Source: a virus
Reading direction: 5' to 3' (one strand)
IMG/VR virus record: IMGVR_UViG_3300042470_000069
Coordinates: 1-25,055 of that record
DNA length: 25,055 nucleotides
Shown here: piece by piece, positions 1 through 22,823 of the stretch
Layout: the number at the start of each line of letters is the position of its first letter
Position numbering within the stretch: the first letter of the stretch is position 1
The notes under the pieces: model-generated
Seen by the model: the letters and a program-made list of their open reading frames with translations, nothing else
Databases searched by the model: none
What the model was told of the DNA's origin: nothing
Program-made: the position numbers and the translations under genes

Positions 1-3000
1 TGATGATATTGTTTTCTTCGTCAACGTTCAGTATAGTCATGTACTCTCCGTTAACATAGATGGTTTTACCTTCTAATGTAGTGATAGTCAATATGTCACC
101 TGCTTGTATCCAATCACCTGACTGAATCAGTACGAATGGTCCTAGACCAGAAACACGCACAGTGATATAATCTTCATCAATATAACCTAATCTTGCTGGA
201 TTATTATTGTATACACGAACCTGCAATATATCGAATCTGTTAGCGATCAGACCTATCTCATGATTACCAAATACTGCTACAGGAGTCGTATTTGTTTGTG
301 TAGTGCTATTGGTTAATTTGCGAACATCATCTACTTGAATTCTGTCCATGTATTCACCAATATTTTCTGTCATCCAAGTTCTTGTTTCTGTGTTGGCTCT
401 GTAAACACTACCTTCTCCTGTCTTGTCAACAGTTTGTATATAAGTTTGTGCGTCAGGACTTGCTGAAGGCATCATGCTAGTGATCACCACTGTATCACCT
501 GGTAAGACTTCAGTTAATATACTGACTTCGTTTGCATCATTCAATCTTAGATTGTTTGAAGATACACGATAACCATTTACAGTTACCCATAGACGGTCTA
601 CGTTAGTTTGTTCCCACTGAGTGACGCGAACGTTGACAGGGCCGGCGATAGATAATGTTTTAGCAGTTCCACCCTGTGTATCGCTGATACTGAATTCATT
701 ATCAAATTCATTGATATCTTTGATATAGTATTTCTGACCTGCAATGATTTGAGGTATTGATGTCGGATCTCCCAACTCTACCCCATCTTCTGTGAAGTAT
801 ACAGGAGTCTCTGAAACTAATCCATCAACTTCATCAACTGTCATTACCCATTGCTCTGTGACATTGTTGTAGTCTGATTGAGTAGCATACTTATTCTCAA
901 GTATGTAACTATCTGCTAACCATACATATCCGCTACCAGTATATGTGTTCACATTAGTTACTGCTTCTGATGCTGTGTAATCTGTCACGCCCGGTGCATA
1001 CTCATATAATTCAAACTCAGTGGCACTTGTCACATTGATGATGAATTTCTGATTATTCAATTGTGTTGAACCACTAACGCCATCAATTCTAATGATATCA
1101 TCAATTAATAATCCATGAGGTATTGTTGTAGTCACAGTCACAGGAATAGTCACGTTGTTGACATAACTGATAGGTGATACTTGGATGCCTGTATATTCTG
1201 TTGTAAACAAATATTGACGTTGAGTATCATTGAATGTTGTAACTGCAATCGTATCTGTTGGAGTAGGTGCCATGCTGACGAATACTAATGTATCGTTAGC
1301 AAAATAGATATTATATTCACTTGGATCTATTCTTAATCCATTGACTTCTACTATCGCATTAGTTGGATTAGAACCACCTAGATAATTATCTAGTGTGTAA
1401 GGTCCAACACTACCTTGACCCAAGAACGTCTGTGTTTGTGGTAACGTAAATCCATATTGCTGTGGCTCTGTTGGTCCAAAGAATGAGTATGATATATAAT
1501 CAACTGTCTTATCATAACTGCCTGCAAAAATAATCTTGGCATTAACTTGATTTGCTGCCAATGTAGCCGCATAATCATTAGTGATAAAGATTGCTGATCC
1601 AGAGGCTGAAGTTAAGTATATTGGATCTCCGGCACCGTTTCTTATTCTGAACTCAGTAGCACTTACAATCTGATATACATAATAAGTTACATGTGGTATG
1701 ATGCTACCAAATATAGTATCGCTGAACACTATTGGTTGATCTACTATTAATCCAACTGTAGAGAATGTAGTCAATGCATGTGTTGCGGCATTTGTTGCTA
1801 TTACATAGTTTGTCAAGCCTGAAACTAGTTTAGTACCATTATAGAATACTGCTGGCTCAGTCCAGAACTGACCTGATGCTCTTTCAAGTATCACAGACAT
1901 CTGCCCTGCGTCAGTACTTAGTGGTAGTATAGGACCTGCTATACCTGATACTAATGTATCGCTTACAGTTATAGTGTTTCTAACAGTATTGATTGACTTG
2001 ATATAATACGGAGTGTTTATAGCAACACCACCGAACACATCGCCTGCAAAATATACTTCTTCGTTTAATGTAAAGTTAGACACATCATCTACTGTGATGA
2101 AGTCTGTACCGCTTTCAGTATCAAATGCTGTTACGCTGATAGGATAACTATCTGGCTGTACTATACCGCCACCGTTATAACCAAGAGTTGTGTAATTACA
2201 ATCTAAGTTTATTTCATCAAAACCAGTCACAGCATTTATTTCTATAGGTTCATTTTCTGTGCTTGACTTGATTAACTGATCGCCATTACCTACTTCATAT
2301 ACATCTATGCGTAATTTTTCGCCTGTTGACAATGCTGAATTTAGTGTGACTACTTTGGTTACCCAATCAATAGTATAATCAGTTGTTTCATATAATGTGA
2401 CGCTCAACTCGTCAGTCAACAAGAATACACTGATGTATGCAGGTGTCTGTACCACTTCGCTGAAACTATATTCATTAGATGCGTCTTCTTCTAGTTCAAT
2501 AGAAACTACGTTGTAGCCCACATGCGCATACTCAGTAGCAGACCAATTTGTACCTGCTCTAGTATTAACAATCATAGTTAATTGATCAGATACGATACCC
2601 GGCACTAATTCTTCTGGGCCATAACCTGCTTGGAACGGATCACCCTGTACAATATACTCTGGTTCTGGAGTTGAGAACACCTGTGTAGTATCCCATATTA
2701 CTACTGGCGCTGTAATGTCTAAAGTTTGTAACACAGTATTGTTGTCACCAACTATAGTCCACTGACCTCTATCTTCTACATAGATGACATTGTTTAAGTT
2801 TTCTATAGTACCGGTTGCTTTGACTGTGAACGTAGTTCCATCAGTAGATACTCTTACTACACCGCCATCACCTACTAATACTAATGTGTTATCGGCGAAT
2901 TCTACAGCATTATAATTTGTAGTACCTTGCTGAGTCTGTAGCCAAATAGTTCCGTTAGTGCTTGATAATACACCACCGTTAGTTCCTACAGTGTAGATAG

Positions 3001-6000: not shown

Positions 6001-9000
6001 TGACCACAGCAGGCTCAGATGAGAATGCGTCTCTCAATGTGAATTCTTCGCTACCCAACACTGAAACTACGTAGAACATAGCATTAGTTCCGAACATTCC
6101 GCCGCCTGTAGTAAAGTACACGGGTAGATTTGTATAGAATCCATTAGTGCCGCCGGTACCTATATCGGTCAATGCGACTCTTACTGAGTTAGTTCCAGAA
6201 TATGTGTTAGTTACATTTCTGTAGCCTGAGTATATCGATGTGAGTACCGCAGTATCAATAACTTTCGCTGTGTACATCTTGAAATCAGCAGATGGGATAG
6301 GAGCAAGCGATAGTGCGCTACCACTTTCTGTAGTGCTGATCTTGAATGTATCAAGACCTATGATCTCATTGATGTAATATGTAGTTCCTTCAACTATCTC
6401 AGAACCTGTGTCACCTTCAAACTTGACTGGCATGCCAACATAGAAACCTATCGTTGATCCTGATGGATACTCATCTGTACCTGAACTAGTGTAACTCAAT
6501 ATAAGTTCATTGTTTGACACGATAGCACTTACTGTACGTTCAAAACTCGACCAATCTACTTGTCTATCATTTGTTACATTAACTAACGGAAATGCTGTAC
6601 CTTCTGCGCTAGATAATATAGTATTGATGTCAGGTTGTACTGAGGCTAATGATACGCTACTGCTTGATGCTTCAAGCAAGTAACTGACAAACTCACCACC
6701 GTAGAATGTATTAGGAGCCCAATCAGTTACTTGTGTATCATATGTTGTTCTGTCAAAGCGCAATGTGATATTGTTTTCTCTGACAGGATAACTTGATGTT
6801 ATAGGTGTTGCTCTTGCACCATATTCAAAACTTTGACTGCCGGTGCCTTGACTCAACAATCTTACTCTAGTGTTGTCGTTCAACGCATCTGCATAAGTTG
6901 TATACAATGCCGCGATAGTAGTTGGACTTGAATCCAATACGTTTACATAATAATATTGACGATCTGCAAGACCACCGATATTCTCGGTACCGGCCACATA
7001 TCGTACTAGATCACCTGTAGTCAATGCTGGAGCATATAGTTCTATAGTGTTTGTGACAGTATTCACGTTGCCGCTACTAAAAGTGAAAGTATCAGCAGGA
7101 TCTATAACGATTTCAGGCAGCACGGCATAGCCTTGACCTGGATCTATAATGTTTATTCCTACTACACTGTCTAGGCTCATGACAGCCTCAAGAACTGCTT
7201 CTTGTCTTGGTTCTGGATATACAGTAGTGTCTATTACTGCTATAACTCTAGGAGGGTTAGCATAGCCACGACCGCCATCTAATAATAATACACCCGGTAG
7301 ATTCATATAAATCAATTCACCCGGTAAGTGATCTACGATAGTAGTTCCGTCTACGCCCCTAGTCAAGCCAGTAATGATGCCGGTTGCACGATCTACTGTA
7401 GCATAACTTATCTTTTCTGAACCTATAGTGAATGTTCCGTTGATTGGGAATCCTTGTGGATTATCAACAATGATATTCTGGCTAGTGATAGTTAGATATG
7501 ATTCTAATGTTGCTATCTGATAATTGTCTTGACCGGATAGACTTACTCCGTGATTATCAAACCATTCTTTATATTTTTCAGTCTGCCATATAGGATCATC
7601 TGGTAAGAATTCATATTCTGTATCAGCATTGTTGTATACTAATTCAGGGCTTACGAATCTATCTATAGTTGTGTCATAAGTCGCAGGCAAATCAAAATCA
7701 GTTAATGTGCCTGGATATACATCGCCACCTGTGTAATCGAATAAGAATTCTTTGATGACTACGTGATATGGTTTAGTTTCATTCACATAACCTTCTAAGA
7801 ATAGTTCATTGTCGCTTACGAAATTTTGTAATGGTTTTAGTTCACGAATTTTGTGGGCCACATCAACTAATGATGTCTTGTTCAACCATGGTAGATAGTT
7901 TTGATTTTCATCAGTTTCTTCTTGAATATATTCGAACAACAATATCAAACTCTTGTTTCTGTAAATCAACAATTCGTTTGTATAAATCTGTTCGTTCAAG
8001 GCGCGCATGATCCAGCGTGTTTCTTCGCTTGGATATACGTCATAACTGTCAGTATCGTAGAACGTGCCGCCGAAACCAAATCCGGCTGCGTTGTAATCAA
8101 ATAGTTCATCTTTGAATCTGATAGTACCGTTCTGTAATCCTATTCTAGTCCAAACTCCATCACCATCATAGCGATATGTTTCAGTAGCACCATAGCCGTT
8201 TTGTGCTACAGTAACGATAGTACCTGATGCAAATTCAAGCGCAGATAAATCAGCATATATAGGTACCTGTGTGACAGACTTAGTGTTGTTGTCATAACCT
8301 GGTGCCCACCAGTTGATATACTCCCAATAGTTACTAGTATCATAATAAGTTCCTGAAGTGTTCAAGAAATTAAATGATCTGATCTCGCTGATCGGGAACA
8401 GTTTCATTATAGTGTTTGCAAACTGTAGATAGTTCTTTATCGCAAGATATCTGTTATAGAAGAAACTCTGTCTTGGTCTTGCCAACACGCCTGATTGTAC
8501 TGCTTTAGGTAAGAATGGGTTAGGTACTACTGCACCGGTCTCATCTACACCTGATAAACTGTCTAATAATCTGTCATATAATGACTGTGGTGTGACATAG
8601 CCTCTTGTTCCAGGCACGCCCGGTAAGAAGTCATCAGCATAATCTGTTCGTATCAATGTGAATGATTGATGAGCAGGATTATCTTGCTGTCCAGTACTGA
8701 ATCCTATCTGTAACACAGTGCTATTTGCATTCAAGAATTGTTTTGTATTGTAAAGAGCAACAGCATCAGAATTGATAGGAGTCAAGTAACTTATGCCTGA
8801 TGATACAGGACTGTTTATATAGGCTGCGATATTAATGTCAGCGAGTGATTTACCTGGTGACACGATACCATAATTTCTGACCCAGAAATAATATACAGGC
8901 GTTATAGTATTAGATGAATTCAATACGGTTTGTACTGTGTAGTTAGTTATGTCTCTAGGTACGCCAGGACCTTGATATGATGAAGGTAATACATTACTTG

Positions 9001-12000
9001 CTACCCAAGTACATACTGCTACATCGCTGCCTGGGAATAACGTCCCCCAATAACGTGCGTTGTAACTATTATCATTTTGATGATAATTGATATATTTTAT
9101 ATTTGATGTATCGAACCAGATTGATCCCGTTTGCGCTTCACCCCATATCATGCCTTGCGGGCTGTTGACGTTGTTATAGTTTGCAGGATCTATGTTAGAA
9201 ATAACGTCTATGTTCTGCTGTACTGCACCTAACAACTTACCCTGTAATGGATCAATATAATCTAAGTTGCTTAGAGTATTATTAGTCTCCCCGTCAAACA
9301 TCTGTATGTTGTATATTCTTTCGATATCAACTACAGGATTTGCGTGTCTCAATACAGACCAGTTTTTCTCACCTGTGTTATTCACATAAATCACTACTTG
9401 ACCATCAATGTCTTCAGGTCTGTAGTCAGGGCTACCGATCACGATCTTGTCATCTGACCAATCTATAGCAGAACCATATCTTGGCTGACTACCATAAACT
9501 AAGTTCTGTGCGTTAACGCTTTGAGCATAAGTGTAATTACCTATGTTCTGTAATGATTCGTTATAGTTGCCTAGATACTCGAAAGTATAAACTGCGCCTG
9601 CGTTATTAAATGTATCTATGAACTGTGTTGAGTTGTTATCAAAGATAGTATCATTTTGATAATTTGCATCATCAACAAAGTCAAATGAAGTTAATGTATA
9701 GCGTGTTCCTGATGGTGCTGATATAGCGACACTGTTTTGGTCGTTGAATTTAACAACTGTACCAAATTGACTTGGGCCTGTACTATGTGGATTCTGTACG
9801 ATCTGAGTTTGTGTGTATAAATCTATACCTAACTCACTCAATGTTGTCAAATCTGCTGACAACAATAATTCTTGATTTGCAGAAGCCAGATCAAAATTTA
9901 TCAAACTAATGATCAATTTGCCATTAACAGAAGATGCTTGGACATTTATGATATTAGCATTGTTTATATTAGTTGCTGCCTGAGTGCTATCTCCAACTGA
10001 GATGTTAACTAAGTAACCATTCACTAATATTGATCTAGATGCAGTTACGTTAGTATTTGTTGTTCCGGCTATAATACCGAATCTAGCACCACCATATGTA
10101 TATCTGAAGGCTGCACCTTCTTGATTTGCTGTGCTTAAGTAGAACGGTGTACCTACTAATATCTCAGTACCTTGTGTATTATTATCTACGCTAAATCCAA
10201 ACTGACTTCCGTTTCTAGGATTATTTGCATTACTTAATTCTTGTACCAATACAAATTCATTACCGCTTACAGTTAGTATGTCACCGATAGTGAAATTACC
10301 TAAGTAACTGAACGTAGTGCCGGTGAATGAATAGTCTGTGCTATCTATTAATATACCGTTCTTTGTTACAGTTAACGGTTGTCCTACAGTAGGTGCCCAT
10401 ATCAACGTGAAGTCAACTGTATCACCTACCACATATTCTTGCTGTATCTGATAGTTCTGTACTAATCTATCATAGATATAACTTCTGCCGTTATTAGTTG
10501 CGAGATGATCTTGGTTAGGTGCACCTACTACTAATGTAGTACCATAATAGTTTGTAGACAATGAATGTCCGAACTTGTCAATAGCAGTAGATCCGCTAGC
10601 AATAGTTGTGAGATACTCGTAATCAACACTCTTAGCAGTGCCGGTACCTGAACCTATTCCTGTAGCAATAAAGTAGATACCTATAGCATTTGTGACGGCA
10701 CCAACTTCTTCAAAGTCAGTATCACCTATGCTTGTTATCTGATATGTCTTACCTACAACAAAACTTCCTGCATCAGTCTCTACGTTAGTTCTACGATATA
10801 CGTGAACATTATTTCTTGCTGAAGATATATCCTCATCAAAGTCACTTATGAACAACCAGTTCAAGTCACCAGACAAGGCTGTTGCTTTGCCGAAATTAGT
10901 GATGCTTGGATCTATATCGGTCGCGTCAATTTCTTGATAAAGTATGATATTGTCTGAAACTTTAGTATTGTTTACAGTGTATAAGAATACTTTAGGAGTA
11001 TTTTCAGGCTGTGATATCACATAGATATTTTGTTCGTGTACAATAGTAGTACCGAAACTCACATCACCTGTCAATGTCTCGTCTAATTGATAATCTCCAT
11101 CAGTCACATCATATTGATAACGATAGACTTCGCCTAAGTTAGGATCGCTGAATAGATAATCACTTAATGGACTATATGCTACTGCTGAGCCAAACTTCTC
11201 GCTGTTTTGTTTATTGAATTCTTTTTCATATGAATAGTTTATATTCTTACGATATACAGCCCAATCTCCGTTTGTGTTCTCGTCTACCCACACTGTGTTC
11301 TTGACAAATTCAAAATCTAGTAATGGTAGAGACTGTATATTACCCGGCTGTGCAACACGCTGAGTCTGGAACTGTAGTCCTATACCAAAACCTGTTATAG
11401 CCTTTGTTCCGTTAGGTAATGATAATGTCACAAGTACTTGTCTTGTGTTAACAACATTTGTTACTACATAGTAACCATTTACCGCGCTATCAAAATTTAT
11501 GATACTGAAAATATCAAACTGACTTAGATTGTGATCTTTATCAAATGTGACTGTGCAAGTATTATTCAAGTTGTTGCGTACCAATATCACTTGACCAATG
11601 CTTGTAGGTGTCAATATCTGCCAACTTGCTCTATAGTCTGCTAGCCATATATAATCACCAACATATATGTTGTTGATCGGTACGATCTCTCTATTTTTGT
11701 CTACACCTGTTGGTAGATTATTAAAGAAATAAGCAGAAACTTTTACGTCATTTATGTTGACATAGCCTGCATCTGGATATACTTCATAATTAATGTTATC
11801 TTCTAATAAAGGTAATATGTTAGGATTGTTGATAGGTCTATTATAATTGAACAATGAATATAGAGGAACAAGTTGTTGCGCACCTTCTACGTCATTACCA
11901 TTAGTTATACCTACGATGCTTGGGTTGGCAGTTAGATTATTCTCGTTCAATCTAAATTGAATAAAGTTGTCGTTTAATGTTCCGCCGAACGTACCTTGCA

Positions 12001-15000
12001 ATATACCCCAGTTCTCGTATATGTCGTAATCGATACCGCCTTGAGGTAAGTTAGCACCCTTGAATGCCTTAACTGCGTTCAATGTACCTTTTTCTTTGAT
12101 CAAGTTTTTATAGATGTTGACCTGTGTGATGTCTGTCAAGTCAGCACTTGCCATGTATTCTCTTGGTCTAAATCCAATCAAACTGAAACTCAACAAATCT
12201 GCATCTTTTTCTAAGTTGGCAGTGTTGGTGTTGTAGTACAATGCGCTCTCATAACTACGTGTGCTACTGTTCGGTAATAATCCTTTTTGAATCTCATCGT
12301 AATCAGTTTGCTTCCACTCTTCTTCTTTGAATTTCTTTCCAGGCTGCACGATCTGCAATGCAGTGAAGAATTTGTTTTTGTACTTGACGATAGCGCCCTT
12401 AGTATACTTTAAGTCAGGGCTCCACTGTTCGATATTATCTTGATTATAGATGAAACCGCTAGCAAATAATGTTCCGTTCCATTCTCCGCTCTTAGTGCCG
12501 CGTAGATATATGCGGTTCTGCTTTAATCCTGATATCAGATTATAGATAGTGTCGTTGAACAATGTCTCATTCTGGAAAACAATACCGTGTTCGATATTGC
12601 TTAGATTGAATTGTCCATATGCTACTGCATCACCTTCGTTGAGTGGTTTAACAGAGAACAAAGTGCCATCTCTGAATATGTTCAAATCTTTATTCTGTAT
12701 AGGATACAGATTGTTGTTTAATATGAAATTATTATTAGCATAAGTCAATGGTTGTACAACTTGACTTTCTTTGTTGATAGTCAATTGTAGTGCCGCTGGA
12801 TTCAATGTCAATATACTACCTTGTGTCCAGCCTGTCTGTGCCCAATATAAGAACTCGGCGACCATCTGTCTCCAAGATACTTGTATGTTCTGTATCTGGT
12901 CATCAAATACTGCACCATTCTCTTCTAACCAAGCACCGTAGTTCAACAAGAACTGTGATACTTCTTGGTATGTATAGAATACAGTGCCATATGGTACGAT
13001 CTCTTCTTGTGCTGTATATCTATCTGCTACTTGTATGCTGACATCTTGTACTGTTATTCTGCTTCTTTGACCATTTGTTATAGGTTTCAAAGTCTTGAAA
13101 TATGCAGTAGTCTGGCTGTTACCAAACACAGCAAATCCTTCAGCCACGCTTTGTACTACTACACCTGAGTATACCAATTTTGTCATTGGTTGATTCTCGT
13201 ATAGTATTACTTGATAACTTTCATCAGGAATCAACAATGAACTGTTTCTTGATTCAGGTGTTCCTTTTTCTACAAAGAACTTCAATAATGACTTATCGCT
13301 AAAGCCTGCTAGGCGATATACTAATCTTACGTCTAAGTTATTCAATAGGTCAGTGATGTTCTGGGTAGCATCAACACCTAACTGTTTCTGATAGTCTACT
13401 ATCCAGTTTAAGTATGATGTCTTGGCGACACCATTGCCATAAATCTCTATCTCTGACGGCACTAAGTGTGTTCTACCATTTACTAAGAACTGATTAAACT
13501 CAACATTGTATTTGTAGTTGTCAATGTCAGCACCTAGATTATAGAATATAGCAGGTTTCAATAATGCTTCAAGGCGCATCAAGTCGAACGGATATGTTGA
13601 ACTCTTGCGATATGAATATTCTACTGGAGCATCATCACCCACTCTCCAATCGCGCTGGAATGATAGTTGATTATAGTTTGCGATGACTGTATCTAATGGT
13701 TCTTTTAGATTGCCTTGGTCGTCGACCGGTATGATATCTAGCAACCCTGGTCTCTGATATAATGGTCTTACTATAGGATCGCCGTTATTATAATCGATAC
13801 CATCTTGTAAATCTGTCCACAATATCAAGTTGTCACTAGTATATGGTGCGGCTCCATAACGACCTTCCCACCAAGTTGGTTTGTTAGCGTAACCTATCAT
13901 AGCCCATGGTGTCAAGTTTGGTGTTGAAGTGTCATATACATATTCATATATGCCTCTCCAATATCCTTGCAATATCTGGCTACCATCTAACTTGAATGTG
14001 CTTTGTTCTCTGTAGTTGTATGTATAAGGGTCGGTTGATCTATACAATTGAGTTTTGTAATTCAATCTATTTTGGCCGGCCCAGTCTAAGAAGTTTCTGC
14101 TGTATATATCAGTCCATTCAAAATAAGTCAATGATGAATCTCTGAAGTACCCCGGTACGATCTCTGCAAGATCGACAGGTAAAGTATTGCTTAACTTGAT
14201 GTTATTATAAACTCTAGTCTCAAATTCTAATAAAGCCTGATCTCTGAAATCTACAGGTAATCCTATAACTTCATTATAGTCACCGTATAATTTATTATAC
14301 GAACCATCATGTCCTTGTATGAAATATGTTGGTTCTTGATAAGTGGTATCTAGTAAAACTTTAGGTTCGTATAATGGATACAAGCCTAATTTAGTAGGAG
14401 TGTTTGGAATATATGAACCATATGTCTGGTTATATTCTTTGATGATGATCTTATCGCCACTCTCTAAAAATTTAGTTACTGTTACGCTAGGGCTGTCTGT
14501 GCTTACGATATATTCAATATTTTTTATTAATTGTTTTGTTACTATTATACCTTGTATTCTTCGTTGCGAGTATACCAGCACGCCGTCATAATTGGCTGTG
14601 CTGAAATCGTAAATCTTGCTCAATGGGAATACACTAGTCTCAGACTGGTTAGCAAAATTGTATGTGTTACTGATATATGGCGCCTTGTTAGGTATCATAT
14701 CAGACCAGAAGAAAGGTTGTTCTTGGCTCTTGACTGAAGTTATAACATCAATCGCTTCATCCAACAACATTGCTGGATCGTATTTTTGCTGGTATGATAT
14801 CTTATCGACAGTATCGATCAAGAGAGTCTTAAATTTAATGTACTCTCTACTGTTGTACATCAAAGCATCATATAAGTTGTTTCTAGGATTTCTTAATAAT
14901 GCGCCGGGTAATACTAAACTTGCGCTATTCTGAATAATGCGATTACCCCATGGCACTAAGTTACCTAGATCACGATAATTGTTAGGACCAAACATTACTC

Positions 15001-18000
15001 CGGTAGTGTCTGGATTGTTATCATAGATAGATTGATAATGACCGCGAATATCTCCTATATCTACAGTTGCAGGATCAGCATTGAATGGATTATTTGATAA
15101 GTTGATAGGTATAGTATAATACGCATCTTGGCTTACCTTATCGCTCAATATCAATACTTGTATAGGTGTATCAATGTCTTCTGTTAACTTGATTGTGATT
15201 ATAGTTGATGTTGAAGTATTTTCCACAGTATAATCAGTATCCAACGTCAATATATCATTGTTGTTGTATACTTCAAGGCTTGGCCATATAGTATCATCTA
15301 CGTTTAACTGTGGTACATTAACAGTCACAGTATAATCAAAAGTATCACCTGGATCTAATACCGTTACAGGATTGTTTGCTTTATAATCAAATTGGAATAA
15401 TTGATATTGTGTACTTGGTGCTACTGCTGTCTGCCAGCCGATCAATCTTTCATAATCAACTCTAGATGAATAATTGTATACAAAACCATTCTTTACAGTC
15501 GATGTTATAGAATTTCCGTTATTGATATAATCAAATGTTTGAGTATATAATGATACTTCGAATGATATATCACCTACGTTATTGATCGAACTGAAACTGA
15601 TAGGGAAACCTAAAATCGTGTCATTGATTCCTACGCCAAGTTTATAGTTGAACAACTTACAACCATCAAATGTTGAAGAGTTATATACAACTTGGTCACC
15701 ATAACTTATGCCGTTTTCATCAAAGATATCAAACAACGGTGCTTGATTGACTGTCTGTTTTTGTTGTGCTTGAACATAATCTAAGCCGTTAAAATAGAAA
15801 GTTTTTCCTATGTTGTTGAAACCTCTTTGTACCGCAAACATATCATCGTCAACAACATCACCGTCTGCTGTTTCAGTAAGTGTAATGACTGGATATGTTT
15901 CGGATCCGGTAGTATTAAAGTTTACTGTGTAAATCTTGTTTCTGATTAATTCATTTTCGTCTGCGGCAAATACTACTCTTGATCCTGGGAACAAGAGTAA
16001 GTCAGCGTTATTCTTTGTAGCAGCCACAAAACTTGCACCGGTACCCGATGCGATGTCTGCAGGTAAAGGCCAATATACAGTAAGCAAATAAGGATCAGTA
16101 GTATCTACAGAAAGAATTCTAGTTCCGGCTGGTAATCTGCTCTCTTCACCTAAGATCAAATCATTGATCCATTGTCCTTGTGTGAATACACCTGTGACAT
16201 AATCAGGGTCGATACTTACTGTAGTGACTGTTTTTGGTAGTATTTGTCCTGAACCTTGCACGGCGGTTCCTGTACCGAAAGCGGATCCGGTGGCGACGAA
16301 ATTTTGCGGCATCGCTGAACCAAGACCTACATCTGCACTTACTACTGTTATCTTATCGCCTACTTTGTATGTGACTCCTGTAGTACCGGCTACAACGTTC
16401 CAATCAGTACCTACACCCAAATCCCATATAAAATACACATTACCGGGTACTAATAAACCTGAATTGACCGTAGCATTACCTATCAATTGCCATTGAGTAG
16501 TACCTAGACTTACTATTGAATATTCTAAACCAGCAGTCAATGAATCTGAATTAACTATACCACTTTGTGTTGCTTGGAATAATGTTTTTAATGCTGTACC
16601 ATTGCCAGTACCATCGCCCGGAGTTAGTGCAGTAAATATAGTACCTACGCTATAAGATCCAGGTCCACCTATTGTTACCCAATCGGTAGTGCCTAGATCA
16701 GTAATGATATATTCTTCATTGGTCTCGAATTCACCGTCTTGTTGTGATTCGGCTCCTAATAATTCCCATGTCTCTGCCTCTGTAGTTCCTAGGCTAGTGA
16801 TCTGATAATATTGATCTTGCAATAATGATGACAGTGTTACAGATATATTATTAGGATTAATAGTTCCTTCATATTCAGTATATGTCTGTACATCAGGATA
16901 ATAATTCTGTTGATTTTCAACAAAGTCAAATGCGTTGGTTGTTCTTGTATCTATAAAGTCTATATTATTTTTACCAACGATACCTGAATTGAATAACTTC
17001 AAATTAGGATAGAATTCAATGATGGGTCTTTTTGCTTTGTTTAAAGGAGTAGCATAAACATCCGGGATAGTAGGATTGTTATTGTATTCTGCTGTGGAAT
17101 TGATGACATCAATATGGAACCAGCGATTGCTACGTGACCATGCATTCTTGTTTATTGAATTTCTTGCTATGGTTATGTAATCAGGTGTTTCTGGAACATT
17201 CAAACTATCGTCATATGGTCCTATGTCATACGGTAATATATCATATGGACTTGATGTTAGTGTAGTGAAAGGTTCTGGTACTACTAATTCTTCTACTGAG
17301 ATCAATTCGATTCCTGTACCTACACCTTGAACGTAATATTCTCCGTCCAAGTAACTTCTAGGAATCACGTCACCGCTAAATTGTACTTTCAATCCATTGG
17401 TGAATACTACGCCGTTTTTAGCAGTGTAGTTTATTTTTCCAAGTATATCGTTAGTTACGTCGATTACGTTAGTCTCATTATTTTCAATTAGTTTGATTAT
17501 ACCAACTCTGTTAGGGTTAGTGCCATCTTGATAATAAAGAGTATCTAAAGGTGCAGATATATATGGAATTAATTCTATGTAGCCGGCTAGATTTTTAAAG
17601 AAGTTAAGACCTACATATTGTGTACCGTATAACGCAGTGATCTTTTGTTCGATAGGTATCAATCCTGCAGGGATAAGTCTTAATGTAGGATCATCTCTAT
17701 CACCTTCGAAAATGATCGTATAGAAATTATCGTTTACTTCTGTATAGAAACCTTCTTCATATTGACCTTGATTAATGAAAGCAGTCATGCTTCCTGAGGC
17801 AGCCGATATCGGACTGAATGTAGGACCATTCAATGATTCTGATATAGTGATGGTGTTATCGCTAGGATTAATACCAGTGATATAATAGATTGTAGGTTCA
17901 TATTCAACTACTAATCCAGTTGTTGATGGTATAGAGTCACAAGTAAATATCTTACCCAATTGTATAGCATAAACATTGATCGTGTCTCTTGGTATATTTT

Positions 18001-19378
18001 GAGAAACATCTATTGTATAAGTTGGCACACCATTAGCCGCAGTTGCGATCATATCATAGCCAACTATCTTTGTACCGTTTGTTACTCCGGCACCATTCAA
18101 TGTATTACCTATACTGAATGCTCCAGAAATAGTATTATAAACTCTTAGTTCTGTTCCTACTATCTCTGCATCTAATACTGCATTTTCATTGACTCCGGCA
18201 GCGATCCAATCAACATTACCTAATTCATAGATAAAGTATTTCTTACCTACAACCATAGATGTCGCATCACTAGGAATGATGACGTTAGGATCATATGGTA
18301 GTATTCCACCGAAACTTGTTCCGCTAAATGTTAATGTGTTTCCTACTATTAAGTTAGCAGTATCACTTACTGTTAATCTTCCAAGACCATTTATTGCTGT
18401 AGCAGTTATCGTCTTTATACCATTTAATGTTCTATTTTTATCATATATGGTTGTGTCGTAGAATATGCTGACATAACCTGTTTCATTCTGTATGCCAGTG
18501 TTATAGAACATCACTGTTCTACCATTCAATGAAGTCACTCCGTCGATGCTTCCTATATCTGAAAGTCTAGCACCATTGATTTGACTGAATGGTAATGTGC
18601 TGACAACTCCTACAGTGTTATCACCGGGGAAATTATATTCATTTTGTGCATCCTTTTGTGGTACATCAAAAACAACTACACCGTTGTTTGCTCCGTTGTT
18701 AGTGACACCGTATACATCTCTAGTCTGCACATTAGTTTGAGTTGGGTCGTAACCTGTTACGCCTGGAACACCTTGAATCCAAAATTGAGTTTGTTGATTA
18801 ACGTTGAATGTATATCTACCACCACGCAACATTGTTATCGTAGGATTATTTGACCCAGCACCTGCGCCCTCTGCTCTTATGTTATATGCACTAGGTAATG
18901 CTGTTACTTGATAATCATTTGTCGTATATACTGTTGATGCCGCTACCGTTACGGCGGGAGGACCATCTGGTAGCCAGTAATACTGACTATAATTGATGAT
19001 CATGTCTAAATTAGTGAAACTATCCCAACTATAAAATTGGCTCTTAAACAAATCATTATTGTTGTTTGTGATAGCACCTTGTAATTTTAAAGAATCTAAT
19101 ATACCTGGATAACTGATAAAATCATATGCAGTTACTTCATTGTTCTTTAAGAATGCTACGCCCGGTTCTAACTGATAATCTCTGCGAACCTTGTTTGGTT
19201 CTGTTACATAATAATCTTTCGCATCGACACCATAACCAAACTTACTACCAACATAACCTTGTATCGTTTTTGTTACAGGTGGATTTACCAATTGGTCTAA
19301 TGTTGCGGCCAAAAACTGACTATTAGTTTCAGTCTGAAATATGCCCGGTAGAAAATCTAGTGTTCTTATTCTGGTCAT
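1..19378 (-). CDS. Giant modular virion structural protein, gp7 position (3' end beyond window)
   Basis: One minus-strand frame stays open from ATG at 19378 to the left edge, at least 6459 codons; the stop lies outside the window. I read the translation in blocks along its length and found coherent protein throughout. It begins MTRIRTLDFLPGIFQTETNS and soon has NYSQYYWLPDGP, blocks I associate with very large virion proteins next to gp6 in marine T4-like phages (from memory). No signal peptide or membrane segment is visible. It is beta-rich and modular, with repeats described in separate entries. The start is 1 nt after the gp6 stop and has no good Shine-Dalgarno, so translation is probably coupled to gp6. 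The position matches T4 gene 7 (wedge protein, about 1030 residues), but I cannot show homology to gp7. Likely role (inference): peripheral baseplate or fibre-like structure contacting the host surface. The reading frame is near certain; the function is moderate. Confidence 0.9.
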   Translation of the reverse strand, partial: MTRIRTLDFLPGIFQTETNSQFLAATLDQLVNPPVTKTIQGYVGSKFGYGVDAKDYYVTEPNKVRRDYQLEPGVAFLKNNEVTAYDFISYPGILDSLKLQGAITNNNNDLFKSQFYSWDSFTNLDMIINYSQYYWLPDGPPAVTVAASTVYTTNDYQVTALPSAYNIRAEGAGAGSNNPTITMLRGGRYTFNVNQQTQFWIQGVPGVTGYDPTQTNVQTRDVYGVTNNGANNGVVVFDVPQKDAQNEYNFPGDNTVGVVSTLPFSQINGARLSDIGSIDGVTSLNGRTVMFYNTGIQNETGYVSIFYDTTIYDKNRTLNGIKTITATAINGLGRLTVSDTANLIVGNTLTFSGTSFGGILPYDPNVIIPSDATSMVVGKKYFIYELGNVDWIAAGVNENAVLDAEIVGTELRVYNTISGAFSIGNTLNGAGVTNGTKIVGYDMIATAANGVPTYTIDVSQNIPRDTINVYAIQLGKIFTCDSIPSTTGLVVEYEPTIYYITGINPSDNTITISESLNGPTFSPISAASGSMTAFINQGQYEEGFYTEVNDNFYTIIFEGDRDDPTLRLIPAGLIPIEQKITALYGTQYVGLNFFKNLAGYIELIPYISAPLDTLYYQDGTNPNRVGIIKLIENNETNVIDVTNDILGKINYTAKNGVVFTNGLKVQFSGDVIPRSYLDGEYYVQGVGTGIELISVEELVVPEPFTTLTSSPYDILPYDIGPYDDSLNVPETPDYITIARNSINKNAWSRSNRWFHIDVINSTAEYNNNPTIPDVYATPLNKAKRPIIEFYPNLKLFNSGIVGKNNIDFIDTRTTNAFDFVENQQNYYPDVQTYTEYEGTINPNNISVTLSSLLQDQYYQITSLGTTEAETWELLGAESQQDGEFETNEEYIITDLGTTDWVTIGGPGSYSVGTIFTALTPGDGTGNGTALKTLFQATQSGIVNSDSLTAGLEYSIVSLGTTQWQLIGNATVNSGLLVPGNVYFIWDLGVGTDWNVVAGTTGVTYKVGDKITVVSADVGLGSAMPQNFVATGSAFGTGTAVQGSGQILPKTVTTVSIDPDYVTGVFTQGQWINDLILGEESRLPAGTRILSVDTTDPYLLTVYWPLPADIASGTGASFVAATKNNADLLLFPGSRVVFAADENELIRNKIYTVNFNTTGSETYPVITLTETADGDVVDDDMFAVQRGFNNIGKTFYFNGLDYVQAQQKQTVNQAPLFDIFDENGISYGDQVVYNSSTFDGCKLFNYKLGVGINDTILGFPISFSSINNVGDISFEVSLYTQTFDYINNGNSITSTVKNGFVYNYSSRVDYERLIGWQTAVAPSTQYQLFQFDYKANNPVTVLDPGDTFDYTVTVNVPQLNVDDTIWPSLEVYNNNDILTLDTDYTVENTSTSTIITIKLTEDIDTPIQVLILSDKVSQDAYYTIPINLSNNPFNADPATVDIGDIRGHYQSIYDNNPDTTGVMFGPNNYRDLGNLVPWGNRIIQNSASLVLPGALLRNPRNNLYDALMYNSREYIKFKTLLIDTVDKISYQQKYDPAMLLDEAIDVITSVKSQEQPFFWSDMIPNKAPYISNTYNFANQSETSVFPLSKIYDFSTANYDGVLVYSQRRIQGIIVTKQLIKNIEYIVSTDSPSVTVTKFLESGDKIIIKEYNQTYGSYIPNTPTKLGLYPLYEPKVLLDTTYQEPTYFIQGHDGSYNKLYGDYNEVIGLPVDFRDQALLEFETRVYNNIKLSNTLPVDLAEIVPGYFRDSSLTYFEWTDIYSRNFLDWAGQNRLNYKTQLYRSTDPYTYNYREQSTFKLDGSQILQGYWRGIYEYVYDTSTPNLTPWAMIGYANKPTWWEGRYGAAPYTSDNLILWTDLQDGIDYNNGDPIVRPLYQRPGLLDIIPVDDQGNLKEPLDTVIANYNQLSFQRDWRVGDDAPVEYSYRKSSTYPFDLMRLEALLKPAIFYNLGADIDNYKYNVEFNQFLVNGRTHLVPSEIEIYGNGVAKTSYLNWIVDYQKQLGVDATQNITDLLNNLDVRLVYRLAGFSDKSLLKFFVEKGTPESRNSSLLIPDESYQVILYENQPMTKLVYSGVVVQSVAEGFAVFGNSQTTAYFKTLKPITNGQRSRITVQDVSIQVADRYTAQEEIVPYGTVFYTYQEVSQFLLNYGAWLEENGAVFDDQIQNIQVSWRQMVAEFLYWAQTGWTQGSILTLNPAALQLTINKESQVVQPLTYANNNFILNNNLYPIQNKDLNIFRDGTLFSVKPLNEGDAVAYGQFNLSNIEHGIVFQNETLFNDTIYNLISGLKQNRIYLRGTKSGEWNGTLFASGFIYNQDNIEQWSPDLKYTKGAIVKYKNKFFTALQIVQPGKKFKEEEWKQTDYDEIQKGLLPNSSTRSYESALYYNTNTANLEKDADLLSFSLIGFRPREYMASADLTDITQVNIYKNLIKEKGTLNAVKAFKGANLPQGGIDYDIYENWGILQGTFGGTLNDNFIQFRLNENNLTANPSIVGITNGNDVEGAQQLVPLYSLFNYNRPINNPNILPLLEDNINYEVYPDAGYVNINDVKVSAYFFNNLPTGVDKNREIVPINNIYVGDYIWLADYRASWQILTPTSIGQVILVRNNLNNTCTVTFDKDHNLSQFDIFSIINFDSAVNGYYVVTNVVNTRQVLVTLSLPNGTKAITGFGIGLQFQTQRVAQPGNIQSLPLLDFEFVKNTVWVDENTNGDWAVYRKNINYSYEKEFNKQNSEKFGSAVAYSPLSDYLFSDPNLGEVYRYQYDVTDGDYQLDETLTGDVSFGTTIVHEQNIYVISQPENTPKVFLYTVNNTKVSDNIILYQEIDATDIDPSITNFGKATALSGDLNWLFISDFDEDISSARNNVHVYRRTNVETDAGSFVVGKTYQITSIGDTDFEEVGAVTNAIGIYFIATGIGSGTGTAKSVDYEYLTTIASGSTAIDKFGHSLSTNYYGTTLVVGAPNQDHLATNNGRSYIYDRLVQNYQIQQEYVVGDTVDFTLIWAPTVGQPLTVTKNGILIDSTDYSFTGTTFSYLGNFTIGDILTVSGNEFVLVQELSNANNPRNGSQFGFSVDNNTQGTEILVGTPFYLSTANQEGAAFRYTYGGARFGIIAGTTNTNVTASRSILVNGYLVNISVGDSTQAATNINNANIINVQASSVNGKLIISLINFDLASANQELLLSADLTTLSELGIDLYTQTQIVQNPHSTGPSQFGTVVKFNDQNSVAISAPSGTRYTLTSFDFVDDANYQNDTIFDNNSTQFIDTFNNAGAVYTFEYLGNYNESLQNIGNYTYAQSVNAQNLVYGSQPRYGSAIDWSDDKIVIGSPDYRPEDIDGQVVIYVNNTGEKNWSVLRHANPVVDIERIYNIQMFDGETNNTLSNLDYIDPLQGKLLGAVQQNIDVISNIDPANYNNVNSPQGMIWGEAQTGSIWFDTSNIKYINYHQNDNSYNARYWGTLFPGSDVAVCTWVASNVLPSSYQGPGVPRDITNYTVQTVLNSSNTITPVYYFWVRNYGIVSPGKSLADINIAAYINSPVSSGISYLTPINSDAVALYNTKQFLNANSTVLQIGFSTGQQDNPAHQSFTLIRTDYADDFLPGVPGTRGYVTPQSLYDRLLDSLSGVDETGAVVPNPFLPKAVQSGVLARPRQSFFYNRYLAIKNYLQFANTIMKLFPISEIRSFNFLNTSGTYYDTSNYWEYINWWAPGYDNNTKSVTQVPIYADLSALEFASGTIVTVAQNGYGATETYRYDGDGVWTRIGLQNGTIRFKDELFDYNAAGFGFGGTFYDTDSYDVYPSEETRWIMRALNEQIYTNELLIYRNKSLILLFEYIQEETDENQNYLPWLNKTSLVDVAHKIRELKPLQNFVSDNELFLEGYVNETKPYHVVIKEFLFDYTGGDVYPGTLTDFDLPATYDTTIDRFVSPELVYNNADTEYEFLPDDPIWQTEKYKEWFDNHGVSLSGQDNYQIATLESYLTITSQNIIVDNPQGFPINGTFTIGSEKISYATVDRATGIITGLTRGVDGTTIVDHLPGELIYMNLPGVLLLDGGRGYANPPRVIAVIDTTVYPEPRQEAVLEAVMSLDSVVGINIIDPGQGYAVLPEIVIDPADTFTFSSGNVNTVTNTIELYAPALTTGDLVRYVAGTENIGGLADRQYYYVNVLDSSPTTIAALYTTYADALNDNTRVRLLSQGTGSQSFEYGARATPITSSYPVRENNITLRFDRTTYDTQVTDWAPNTFYGGEFVSYLLEASSSSVSLASVQPDINTILSSAEGTAFPLVNVTNDRQVDWSSFERTVSAIVSNNELILSYTSSGTDEYPSGSTIGFYVGMPVKFEGDTGSEIVEGTTYYINEIIGLDTFKISTTESGSALSLAPIPSADFKMYTAKVIDTAVLTSIYSGYRNVTNTYSGTNSVRVALTDIGTGGTNGFYTNLPVYFTTGGGMFGTNAMFYVVSVLGSEEFTLRDAFSSEPAVVRVYQTNLANQIIVENTNGLEVGDPVVFDSIAINGEPSDTFGNIDKQTIYYIKTIGINVITISTTVGGPTFSTGVVAPADDTYCFITSQANVLTLTTRSGNATMVVGVPISPGQVDGQAFTFYPSSQNYADVTTPDLVYGNLLEKTIVQTLAPYNQIAYKQNNSGLYIDIPFTVESNIGGLVTGKTYYAYDLTNVLIDCQSTAGTLLTYDASFLGTTMTVTNASGTGILYPGSLVTGSNVQPNTYIVSYISGSGGNGTYEVSTTYFVPVVTTGCTTTNGIITVDTDFDTNMMYVGMPIVFTEQSLGGTLLDYTYYVRHIINSTQFTIAAVENESSVTLTTASGNMLGTGSPVMKSYLPVGELVSGDDYEIKFIGTTVFSSLGATYLVSGNAVTVGKYYIIKDLGSNTNAFWRTVTGDPTLVVSSEDILYAKNPGTLGINDGTAYQTDFTCNSNPQTGTGQATVVLTNDSGSVTWNQEITQDPTFDIGYVLGGYNVIINDGGTGFTQNNTITIPGDALGGTTPDNDLTLTVSRINPIIAGTYSWSLPLQSDGAITKVISSGTPTGTITTYFLKVTGANTFKVYSDPLMQVPVSGVNFPYQGFTQTSITNVSSTVITLDDATGFAVNDPIVFNDLDSGITLTVGQTYYVLSVAGNNITVAINPGDTAVNAGSGVSGTATKPGSFMLLPEPLIFTPSIVKYNNRVWACTLSNNDSEFVFGKWEELRSDDRRLNALDRAKGYYAPTVNMPGMDLTQLFTGLTYPNTTYKGNMFQPDQQYPVDTQLVDLPFDPTQVSIPAIEWDGTNYIAPANLPNYAAVIADLEVQDDWLLSKLANQTLSLTDITRGDGIYVMSSRNSPTPLFSSADKSIWSVNGYLVPIGTPVDSIDFFKQRLIASGLQLNAVSYENDRYFAVGTKNIIVSDDASLWFEIFVLPQNPGITRQLFDISYVETTQFHGYIAVGANQTEPLILKSMDVREGNYNQTVWTRITGLSNRSLKGVTSGFDTIYTVGTNGGVLSSTNGTIWLQTQQGTTNYNAVEFADNTLVLVGDGGVVRVSTDGTTFTVKATGTIENLNNVIYVEDRGQWTIVGDNNTVLQTLDITAPVVIWDTTQVFSTPEPEYIVQGDPFQAGYGPEELVPGIVSDQLTMIVNTRAGTNWSATEYAHVGYNVVSIELEEDASNEYSFSEVVQTPAYISVFLLTDELSVTLYETTDYTIDWVTKVVTLNSALSTGEKLRIDVYEVGNGDQLIKSSTENEPIEINAVTGFDEINLDCNYTTLGYNGGGIVQPDSYPISVTAFDTESGTDFITVDDVSNFTLNEEVYFAGDVFGGVAINTPYYIKSINTVRNTITVSDTLVSGIAGPILPLSTDAGQMSVILERASGQFWTEPAVFYNGTKLVSGLTNYVIATNAATHALTTFSTVGLIVDQPIVFSDTIFGSIIPHVTYYVYQIVSATEFRIRNGAGDPIYLTSASGSAIFITNDYAATLAANQVNAKIIFAGSYDKTVDYISYSFFGPTEPQQYGFTLPQTQTFLGQGSVGPYTLDNYLGGSNPTNAIVEVNGLRIDPSEYNIYFANDTLVFVSMAPTPTDTIAVTTFNDTQRQYLFTTEYTGIQVSPISYVNNVTIPVTVTTTIPHGLLIDDIIRIDGVSGSTQLNNQKFIINVTSATEFELYEYAPGVTDYTASEAVTNVNTYTGSGYVWLADSYILENKYATQSDYNNVTEQWVMTVDEVDGLVSETPVYFTEDGVELGDPTSIPQIIAGQKYYIKDINEFDNEFSISDTQGGTAKTLSIAGPVNVRVTQWEQTNVDRLWVTVNGYRVSSNNLRLNDANEVSILTEVLPGDTVVITSMMPSASPDAQTYIQTVDKTGEGSVYRANTETRTWMTENIGEYMDRIQVDDVRKLTNSTTQTNTTPVAVFGNHEIGLIANRFDILQVRVYNNNPARLGYIDEDYITVRVSGLGPFVLIQSGDWIQAGDILTITTLEGKTIYVNGEYMTILNVDEENNII
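2690..3480 (-). repeat. BNR/Asp-box-like repeats, probable second beta-propeller (about residues 5300-5563)
   Basis: Four or five repeats end in an S-x-(D/N)-x-x-x-W/F Asp-box: SSADKSIW, VSDDASLWFEI, SSTNGTIWLQ and VSTDGTTFTV, with LKSMDVREG as a weak one. Each is preceded by a strand with VG or MS before it (FAVGTKNIIVS, YTVGTNGGVLSS, LVGDGGVVRVS), and NAVSYENDRY or NAVEFADNTL leads into the next repeat. This is the texture of sialidase, YCF48-like or tail-associated propellers. No sialidase catalytic set (Arg triad, Tyr/Glu pair) can be claimed. A binding or scaffold role is inferred. Confidence 0.6.
3780..3940 (-). other. Aromatic VKY..W motif, possible second CBM-like module
   Basis: The frame reads PSIVKYNNRVWACTLSNNDS, then EFVFGKWEELRSDDRRLNAL and DRAKGYYAPT. 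The spacing V-x-Y-x-x-x-x-(W)-A...F..W-E resembles the second half of the CBM5/12-like motif at 12312-12430, but the first Trp is missing. It is followed directly by a charged DRRLNALDRAKGYY segment. It could be a degenerate sugar-binding module or an unrelated structural domain. Confidence 0.4.
4740..4890 (-). repeat. Two degenerate SLGTTD-type modules
   Basis: The frame reads SGDDYEIKFIGTTVFSSLGA, then TVGKYYIIKDLGSNTNAFWR. Both keep the Y-x-I..(I/L)G core of the family, and the second keeps a Trp. Both lack the GTGTA tail. They lie between copies of the VF..YY repeat, so the two families are intermixed in this part of the protein. Confidence 0.45.
7090..7500 (-). repeat. GLTRG module plus paired GxGY..P repeats (about residues 3960-4097)
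   Basis: The first part reads GSEKISYATVDRATGIITGL, then TRGVDGTTIVDHLPGELIYM. This is a small beta-module with an RG..GT....H..G ending, which I recognise from phage structural proteins. It is followed by two related units, LLDGGRGYANPPRVIAV and IIDPGQGYAVLPEIVID, in which a GxGY turn precedes a proline and a short beta-strand. A third, diverged relative (INDGGTGFTQNNTITIPGD) occurs near 4440-4560. Confidence 0.5.
7680..8470 (-). other. Conserved alpha-helical block (about residues 3637-3900)
   Basis: This block has a helical texture unlike its beta-rich surroundings: NRYLAIKNYLQFANTIMKLF, ETRWIMRALNEQIYTNELLI, SLILLFEYIQEETDENQNYL, PWLNKTSLVDVAHKIRELKP and LEGYVNETKPYHVVIKEFLF. The second half (PWLNKTS to KPYHVVIKEF) is dense in charged and aromatic residues with few small ones. 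That suggests a strongly constrained interface, perhaps with another baseplate protein. The function is not recognised. Confidence 0.5.
9775..10040 (-). other. Inserted domain resembling a flagellar hook IN motif, between propeller repeats 5 and 6
   Basis: The frame reads ASRSILVNGYLVNISVGDST, then AATNINNANIINVQASSVNG, KLIISL and LSELGIDL. The order I-x-VNG-x-x-(V/I), GD(S/T), an IN helix, V-x-AS-x-NGKL-x-I and a closing LGI is that of the flagellin/hook IN motif, also found as an insert in phage tail proteins. It sits in the loop between FG-GAP repeats 5 and 6. The assignment rests on pattern only. Confidence 0.45.
10630..10768 (-). repeat. SLGTTD-type module inserted between propeller repeats 3 and 4
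   Basis: The frame reads VGKTYQITSIGDTDFEEVGA, then IGIYFIATGIGSGTGTAKS. This is a full-length unit of the family clustered at 16225-16830, including the GTGTA tail. It falls exactly between the end strand of FG-GAP repeat 3 (HVYRR) and the lead-in to repeat 4 (YEYLTTIASGS). Confidence 0.65.
12312..12430 (-). other. CBM5/12-like carbohydrate-binding motif (about residues 2317-2356)
   Basis: The frame reads EQWSPDLKYTKGAIVKYKNK, then FFTALQIVQPGKKFKEEEWK. This is the W....Y..G..V.Y....F.A......P......W spacing of the small chitin-binding-like (CBM5/12) module found in chitinases and many phage tail proteins. The aromatic residues that line the sugar site in that family (first Trp, Tyr, and last Trp) are present. 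Binding to a cell-surface polysaccharide is an inference. A structural use of the same fold without sugar binding is equally possible. Confidence 0.55.
13300..15010 (-). other. Aromatic-rich central core (about residues 1457-2027)
   Basis: This non-repetitive region is rich in Trp, Tyr and Phe. It includes WGNRIIQNSASLVLPG, QGHDGSYNKLYGDYN, YFRDSSLTYFEWTDIYSRNF, LQGYWRGIYEYVYD and PWAMIGYANKPTWWEGRYGA. It lacks the Gly/Ser/Thr repeat texture of its flanks and looks like a compact globular domain. A beta-strand hairpin unit (NIEYIVSTDSPSVTVTKFLE then GDKIIIKEY) near 14400-14560 resembles the GD-x-I-x-V turn seen in tail-fibre repeats. No catalytic motif is evident, and I do not assign a fold. 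Confidence 0.5.
16225..16830 (-). repeat. Cluster of SLGTTD-type modules (about residues 850-1052)
   Basis: Four successive units share the plan Y-x-I-x-(S/D)-LGTT-x-W-x-x-(I/L)G, a loop, F-x-A, and GTG-x-GTA. Visible cores are YYQITSLGTTEAETWELLG, EYIITDLGTTDWVTIGG with FTALTPGDGTGNGTA, EYSIVSLGTTQWQLIG, and YFIWDLGVGTDWNVVAG followed by FVATGSAFGTGTAVQ. Units are about 40 residues and are separated by short linkers. The module is known to me from large phage structural proteins; its function is not known to me. A small beta-domain used as a spacer or surface decoration is an inference. Confidence 0.65.
17800..17940 (-). repeat. N-terminal outlying copy of the YY..TIS repeat
   Basis: Translation gives GLVVEYEPTIYYITGINPSD followed by TITISESLNGP and a Gly-Ser tail ending GSMTAF. 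This is the same plan as the repeat family clustered at 665-6480 (an IYYI strand, a turn, an F/T-I-S strand, then a short Gly/Ser hairpin). It lies about 3800 residues away from that cluster. The wide separation suggests the unit has been copied and moved within the gene. Confidence 0.5.
18178..18246 (-). repeat. SLGTTD-type module, degenerate copy 1
   Basis: The frame reads KKYFIYELGNVDWIAAGVNE. It matches the pattern of the modules at 16225-16830: Y-x-I, then LG, a short polar run, W, and a small-residue loop. The usual GTGTA tail is missing, so this is a shortened or diverged unit. Confidence 0.45.
18860..19378 (-). other. Conserved N-terminal block of the giant protein (about residues 1-173)
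   Basis: This block contains LPGIFQTETNSQFLAATLDQ, then GYVGSKFGYGVDAKDYY, QLEPGVAF, a segment about a pale helical stretch (YDFISYPGILDSLKLQG), and NYSQYYWLPDGP near residue 135. It is non-repetitive, unlike most of the rest of the protein. This suggests it is the attachment end that docks on the gp6/gp25 wedge. The docking role is an inference from its position and conservation. I recall similar N-termini in giant structural proteins of T4-like marine phages but cannot verify this here. Confidence 0.6.
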
Positions 19379-22808: not shown

Positions 22809-22823
22809 AAAAACCGAGTTTTT
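22809..22823 (-). terminator. Weak AT-rich hairpin at the end of gp25
   Basis: AAAAAC-TCG-GTTTTT on the minus strand can form a 6-bp stem with a 3-nt loop followed by T-rich sequence. It overlaps the gp25 stop. With a single G:C pair it would be a poor intrinsic terminator. It might give partial termination just before the late promoter candidate, or be chance in AT-rich DNA. Confidence 0.2.

Follow-up and report, generated by a model that had tools for sequence, protein, structure and literature searches.

The DNA analysed here (the window) is a viral stretch of 25,055 bases and makes up the whole of the public record IMGVR_UViG_3300042470_000069, so its left end is also the end of the contig. 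On the minus strand, the C-terminal part of a putative hub/tail-lysozyme-type gene is followed by a gp25-like gene, which precedes a gp6-like gene, and then by a giant open frame whose ATG start codon lies one base past the stop of the gp6-like gene (Table 1). The gp6-like gene was identified from PHROG profiles, as the Pfam gp6 model gave E 0.38, under its cut-off. The truncated gene at 23292..25055 was assigned from its position, with no PHROG match at E 0.1 for the window protein; in a related contig (G033), the 1,111-residue gene before gp25 matches phrog_13211 (1.7e-36) and Phage_base_V (1.4e-5). The adjacency of the giant frame to gp6, which an earlier note on this DNA had claimed, is thus borne out by phrog_10646 and phrog_219, with a single base between the two genes.

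Table 1. Genes, conserved blocks, domains and repeats in the window; residue numbers are those of the giant protein
Feature	Position	Strand	Basis
Giant gene, 6,459 codons in window, PHROG 10938 family	2..19378	-	ORF list, stop counts, near-identical contig, PHROG profile
Conserved block 1, residues ∼1-145	18944..19378	-	BLASTP; common to Atu_ph07, PA5oct, GAP32, SCTP-2
Conserved block 2, residues ∼620-840	16859..17521	-	Relatives aligned; stretch between blocks 1 and 2 variable
GTTDW repeat (∼44 residues), four copies or part copies, residues 856-1022, variable insert	16313..16813	-	Own HMM
Conserved block 3, residues ∼1127-2500, most conserved	11879..16000	-	Alignment; phrog_10938 1.6e-154
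Small beta domain, residues 1564-1652	14423..14689	-	VIA-align of AlphaFold2 model
Chitin-binding type 3 (CBM 5/12)-like domain, residues 2314-2360	12299..12439	-	Model versus structures
FG-GAP_2 repeat, residues 2926-2969, in variable region	10472..10603	-	PF14312 23.4 and 28.4 bits, cut-off 23
Conserved block 4, residues ∼3300-3945	7544..9481	-	Relatives aligned
Part of C-terminal extension, residues 4308-6243, 9 of 11 copies of ∼52-residue repeat	650..6457	-	Own HMM
Pfam E1_FCCH stretch, residues 6080-6152	923..1141	-	PF16190 3.5e-5, 24.2 bits versus cut-off 29.5
gp6-like baseplate wedge gene	19380..22775	-	phrog_10646 1.7e-254, phrog_219 1.8e-22
gp25-like baseplate wedge gene	22822..23274	-	PF04965 4.8e-7; phrog_261, phrog_43
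C-terminal part (587 codons, truncated by contig end) of hub/tail-lysozyme-type gene	23292..25055	-	Position only

The same note had described one uninterrupted frame of at least 6,459 codons, encoding a protein of more than 700 kDa that ends outside the window. In the ORF list, the minus-strand frame is stop-free over 6,459 codons and runs past the left end. The other two minus-strand frames hold 602 and 658 stops and the plus-strand frames 422, 335 and 578, with no plus-strand open run longer than 106 codons. At the lowest stop density among the other frames, the log10 probability of a chance open run of this length is about –149. A second contig, IMGVR_UViG_3300042515_000124, is identical to the window at 25,045 of 25,055 positions (10 differences) and extends beyond it. 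The stop that was to be sought left of the contig end lies there, 70 codons on, completing the gene at 6,529 codons and the protein at 719.8 kDa. Over the shared 6,459 residues, the two versions of the protein differ at three. The completed protein is 6.3 times the size of T4 gp7 (1,032 residues), in keeping with the more than sixfold excess claimed earlier. Four more IMG/VR loci show 97–99% identity across whatever N-terminal part each holds.

A collapsed or chimeric assembly might produce a frame of this kind, and the window is indeed a fragment, taken from a collection of metagenome-derived viruses, and encodes a protein that contains repeats. At the DNA level, however, Tandem Repeats Finder detected only a single short array within the giant gene, and the near-identical contig both matches the window and completes the gene. 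From IMG/VR, we fetched 78 loci that hold the N-terminus and 24 that hold the segment 3290-3960. This conserved segment gave a stop-free match within a long open frame in 47 of 47 records searched (43 from IMG/VR and 4 named phages), the frames spanning 3,368 to 7,258 codons, several of them cut by contig ends. Moreover, the conserved blocks occur in the same order across ten aligned relatives. An artefact, rejected on the strength of the second contig and the related records, is nearly excluded, its probability being close to nil; the giant open frame is real.

Compared with G036, a relative 66% identical across 5,694 aligned residues, pN/pS ranged from 0.13 to 0.46 in 13 windows; compared with the more distant G021 (53% identity), it ranged from 0.31 to 0.59. 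These comparisons stop 29 or 27 residues short of the C-terminus, and synonymous sites in them are near saturation. The giant is under purifying selection along its length.

To place the giant among known proteins, we compared it with PHROG profiles and phage records. The profile of PHROG 10938 matches the N-terminal part at 1.1e-44 (profile positions 21-247, best stretch residues 6-823) and inner segments at 1.6e-154 (profile 544-1462) and 1.6e-57 (profile 1802-2134). This family is annotated as 'virion structural protein' of RaK2-like jumbo phages and includes CBB_236, GAP32_230, RaK2 ORF070, PA5oct gp355 and Atu_ph07 gp180. Among 50,697 phage records, 26 were matched by residues 1-1,000 and 60 by residues 1124-2500, all at <60% identity. 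Record sizes are 284 to 490 kb for all 26 N-terminal matches and for the 40 listed of the 60 others, and the large phages matched include RaK2-like phages, PA5oct, Atu_ph07 and Salicola phage SCTP-2. Those complete members of the family that were read out range from 3,138 to 7,256 residues (G028, 7,256; G042, 6,552; G021, 6,494; RaK2, 3,326; the distant RAS14, 3,138). The giant resembles the named members in its profile match, block order, position after gp6 and single frame. It is longer, at 6,529 residues compared to 3,326 to 4,449 (3,138 in RAS14), and the extra length consists of inserts and a repeat-bearing C-terminal extension. By its sequence, then, the giant is a new long member of an already known family of giant virion proteins. 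The earlier view of it as exceptional for a phage gene does not extend to the kind of protein, as the family is already present in PHROGs and in named phages and similar sizes are in print. We found no paper title on the function of the PHROG 10938 family, in a search that lay mostly outside the subscription literature.

Position is conserved along with sequence. A gp6 relative lies directly before the giant in six of the seven named phages read (Atu_ph07, PA5oct, GAP32, CBB, RaK2 and RAS14). The seventh is SCTP-2, in which the preceding gene (5633-14923) spans 9.3 kb, is functionally unannotated and is not of gp6 size. On the maps of the six phages, gp25 is named as such near the giant only in GAP32 and CBB. 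Large contractile-tailed phages thus encode giant virion proteins of PHROG 10938 right after a core baseplate gene. The PHROGs category of both this family and PHROG 701 (see below) is head and packaging, which is at odds with a location in the baseplate cluster.

Some members have been detected in virions. CBB_236, the member from phage CBB, is listed with 21 unique peptides and 7.72% coverage in mass spectrometry of virions (PMC5259590), and the record of PA5oct gp355 carries the note ESI-MS/MS. The names ORF070 and gp070 do not occur in the main text of the RaK2 paper. It is only by analogy with CBB_236 and PA5oct gp355 that the present giant would be placed in the virion.

Alignment with the ten relatives delimits four conserved blocks separated by variable inserts (Table 1). 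Block 4 is followed by an extension of ∼2,600 residues, which is in part common to nearer relatives. AlphaFold2 models were obtained for residues 1400-2500 (mean pLDDT 75.0, pTM 0.70) and 3290-3960 (mean pLDDT 72.9, pTM 0.47). Within the first model, the small beta domain aligns modestly with the P1 baseplate chain 9vzk_T (VIA-align Z 8.0, rmsd 2.8, 75 residues aligned) and with CBA120 tailspike 4 (Z 7.7, rmsd 2.2, 64 aligned), and is predicted to resemble the small beta domains seen in chains of phage tails and baseplates. The chitin-binding-like domain matches 8fqc_P1, again modestly (VIA-align Z 7.3, rmsd 1.4, 45 aligned), and in Foldseek 8fqc_Q1 and 2d49 (prob 1.00 each, E 0.09 and 0.11). 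Its counterparts are in baseplate chains of Agrobacterium phage Milano and in 7-7-1 fibre chains. The Pfam CBM_5_12 match in the giant (E 0.3) is under the cut-off and was left unused, as was DUF6734 in the first 1,666 residues (E 0.0055). The variable region around the FG-GAP_2 repeat reads like a candidate beta-propeller.

Searches of solved structures with both models gave no strong match (best Foldseek E 0.08 and 0.03), and profile searches of the PDB with segments A1, A2 and A3 gave a best E of 0.17, nothing and 0.09, respectively, which we judged to be chance, as we did the best E of 0.42 from a further sequence search of solved structures. No match of the 3290-3960 model was convincing in Foldseek or VIA-align: the SH2 and antibody matches reflect common folds, and the alignment to tailspike 24qi (Z 4.8, 46 aligned) is too short. 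At E ≤0.001, a search of BFVD returned 21 matches. These are long phage proteins, the Atu_ph07 member being one of them, and most carry no functional name.

Two repeats were followed with HMMs whose seeds came from the present giant itself. The ∼52-residue repeat is present in 11 copies, or 10 when the larger set was searched with an unchanged cut-off; 20 shuffled versions of the giant contained none. The seven other members longer than 6,200 residues have 12 to 16 copies, compared to 0 to 6 in the 13 members shorter than 5,800 residues. Member length rises with copy number (Spearman 0.86, n = 21), a correlation among related, and so not independent, members obtained with an HMM seeded from the window protein. 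A tentative identity of this repeat with E1_FCCH was rejected and is not claimed here, because the Pfam E1_FCCH stretch lies beside the copies and overlaps none of the 11. The GTTDW repeat, for which Pfam lists no family, also occurs at residues 376-416, 2873-2915 and 4820-4872. It has 8 copies in the giant (7 in the larger set) and 11 in the longest relative, G028, compared to 0–4 in each of the remaining members counted. Of 21 members, 13 have a GDP[LI]Q motif, which begins 19–23 residues before the C-terminus, and 8 lack it.

The first gene after the giant encodes a 204–206 residue protein of phrog_11259 (204 residues beside the present giant). The product of the second has 309 residues and an autoproteolytic domain of the Peptidase_G2 type (PF11962, 3.1e-8); we read it as a fibre- or spike-type protein. 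In contig G033, ∼7 kb after the giant (14440-18934), lie three consecutive radical SAM-type genes, one above the Pfam cut-off and two just under it, the third with a SPASM domain. It is conceivable that their products modify virion or fibre proteins.

T4 gp7, the baseplate wedge initiator, is likewise encoded directly after gp6, and the giant does occupy the T4 gene 7 position, as the earlier note had stated. In T4 the next gene is gp8, whereas here it is the phrog_11259 gene. Homology to T4 gp7 was sought with whole-family and segment profiles, and no sequence or profile homology of the giant to this 1,032-residue protein was detected. With hhalign against six gp7 sequences, the best E values were 0.13 for the N-terminus, 0.14, 0.23 and 0.46 for A1–A3, and 0.26 for the whole. 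Accordingly, we do not file the giant as gp7. T4 gp7 is also absent among the structure matches listed, which is no evidence of a differing fold. In the comparison proposed earlier with gp7, gp8, gp10 and gp12, the gp7 profile values are those just given (0.13–0.46), and no gp8, gp10 or gp12 Pfam domain was found.

We favour the view, with a probability of roughly 0.7, that the giant is a single virion structural protein, most likely one that lies at the periphery of the baseplate wedge and occupies the gp7 slot, composed of a conserved scaffold and a repeat-built arm. The family profile, the gp6 neighbour, the stop-free matches in all 47 records, purifying selection, the two relatives reported from virions, the tail-type domains in the core model and the relation between length and repeats argue for this view. 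The head-and-packaging label in PHROGs, SCTP-2, where no gp6-size gene precedes the giant, and the absence of a gp7 profile match or a strong solved-structure match argue against it. We infer the following arrangement. The giant would be translated after gp6, probably with translational coupling. The four conserved blocks (∼2,400 residues) would dock on the inner baseplate of gp6 and gp25 and organise the wedge, and the variable inserts, together with the repeat-rich C-terminal extension, the CBM-like domain and the FG-GAP region, would form an arm. This arm may carry fibres or touch the cell surface.

Much of the same material could be accommodated by a long fibre or adhesin, mounted on the baseplate or tail and taking no part in wedge assembly. 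Length varies with repeat number in many fibres and adhesins, as it does here, and FG-GAP, CBM-like and repeat elements are all present. On the other hand, the most conserved blocks are not repeat-like, six of the seven named phages retain the giant immediately behind gp6, and separate fibre-type genes follow the giant, which together make a protein of this sort unlikely. Slightly less likely again, in our estimation, is the proposal of the earlier note that the giant replaces several of the T4 baseplate genes 7 to 12, either as a fusion or by assuming their functions. It draws some support from gp8: none of 14 relatives, of which 4 are complete genomes and 10 are fragments, gave a match to PF09215, while this profile does find gp8 of cyanophage ACG-2014e (6.7e-11 with hmmscan; the tools search differently), and the genes just after the giant are those for the phrog_11259 protein and then the Peptidase_G2-type protein. 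However, GAP32, with a giant about half as long as the present one, is likewise without a gp8 match, so gp8 absence does not track giant size; the lack of a recognisable gp8 seems, on profile matches, to be a trait of this phage group.

Genes of the gp9/gp10 type bear on the same proposal, as matches to them occur elsewhere in these genomes. PA5oct retains a Gp10_C protein (PF21939, 9.8e-24), and 9 of 14 relatives have T4_gp9_10_N matches that lie beyond the giant, in 2 of the 14 above the cut-off; the frames concerned are mostly of 145–303 codons, and two control genomes gave weak matches, none above the cut-off. Cyanophages with giants of ∼6,400 residues also keep a gp9-type gene, and one of them, ACG-2014b, a gene annotated gp8 as well. 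Across the 6,459 residues of the giant, a Pfam scan picks up no domain of gp8, gp9, gp10 or gp12. These data do not support the replacement of several baseplate genes, though for gp8 it is conceivable. Our preferred assignment, a wedge protein in the gp7 slot, gives a testable place to a family of giant virion proteins that is known but has received little study. The present giant extends this family to 6,529 residues, and its relative G028 to 7,256. Comparison of the giants separates the constant parts from those that vary with repeat number, and a phage that devotes ∼20 kb to one chain lends itself to asking how attachment depends on repeat number.

Giants are found in the same slot in another lineage. 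In four cyanophages, two wedge genes, named gp25 and gp6 in all but one of them, precede a gene whose product has 3,495 residues in ACG-2014e, 3,045 in S-CAM3, 6,395 in S-RIM8 and 6,422 in ACG-2014b. The two that were scanned belong to PHROG 701 (S-RIM8; profile of 6,136 positions) and PHROG 4406 (ACG-2014e). The giants of S-RIM8 and ACG-2014b are followed by a gp9-type gene (PF07880, 2e-8 in S-RIM8), a wedge gene encoding ∼1,550 residues and then another wedge gene, the one annotated gp8 in ACG-2014b. Those of the Kyanoviridae (S-RIM8 SXDG_00051, PHROG 701, and ACG-2014b gp087) thus share with the present giant the slot after gp25 and gp6, the size class (6,395 and 6,422 residues) and internal repeats, but the similarity is confined to short stretches of repeats (hhalign E 8.5e-5) and the conserved blocks are not shared. 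BLASTP of the cyanophage giants against the PA5oct member likewise reached 4e-6 in short repeat stretches. PHROG 701 gave no match to residues 1-1000, 1124-3960 and 5460-6459 of the giant, the scan leaving out residues 1001-1123, 3961-5459 and the last 70. Support for a common origin was found for the short repeat stretches only, so it is the slot and not the sequence that is common to both lineages. Proteins as long as 7,694 residues, a structural role being tentatively annotated for some, are also described from huge phages (Al-Shayeb et al. 2020, PMC7162821). Compared by size alone, these fall in the same class as the present giant.

Taken with the giants described above, the gene order raises the tentative possibility that phages with contractile tails have a hot spot of protein gigantism in the gp7 slot. 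Here, in at least two T4-like lineages, scaffolds without detectable homology to one another would have grown by inserts and repeats to 6,000–7,000 residues. T4 gp7 is present in one copy per baseplate wedge. If this number also applied to the present protein, six 720-kDa chains (∼4.3 MDa) might make up the outer baseplate and its arms, with repeat number tuning reach or host contact. In Synechococcus phage S-SKS1 (NC_020851.1, 11287-18284), ∼7 kb of the gp7 slot is without a listed gene, and a 1,601-codon open stretch lies in this interval or at its edge; a giant gene in this slot seems to be unannotated or broken.
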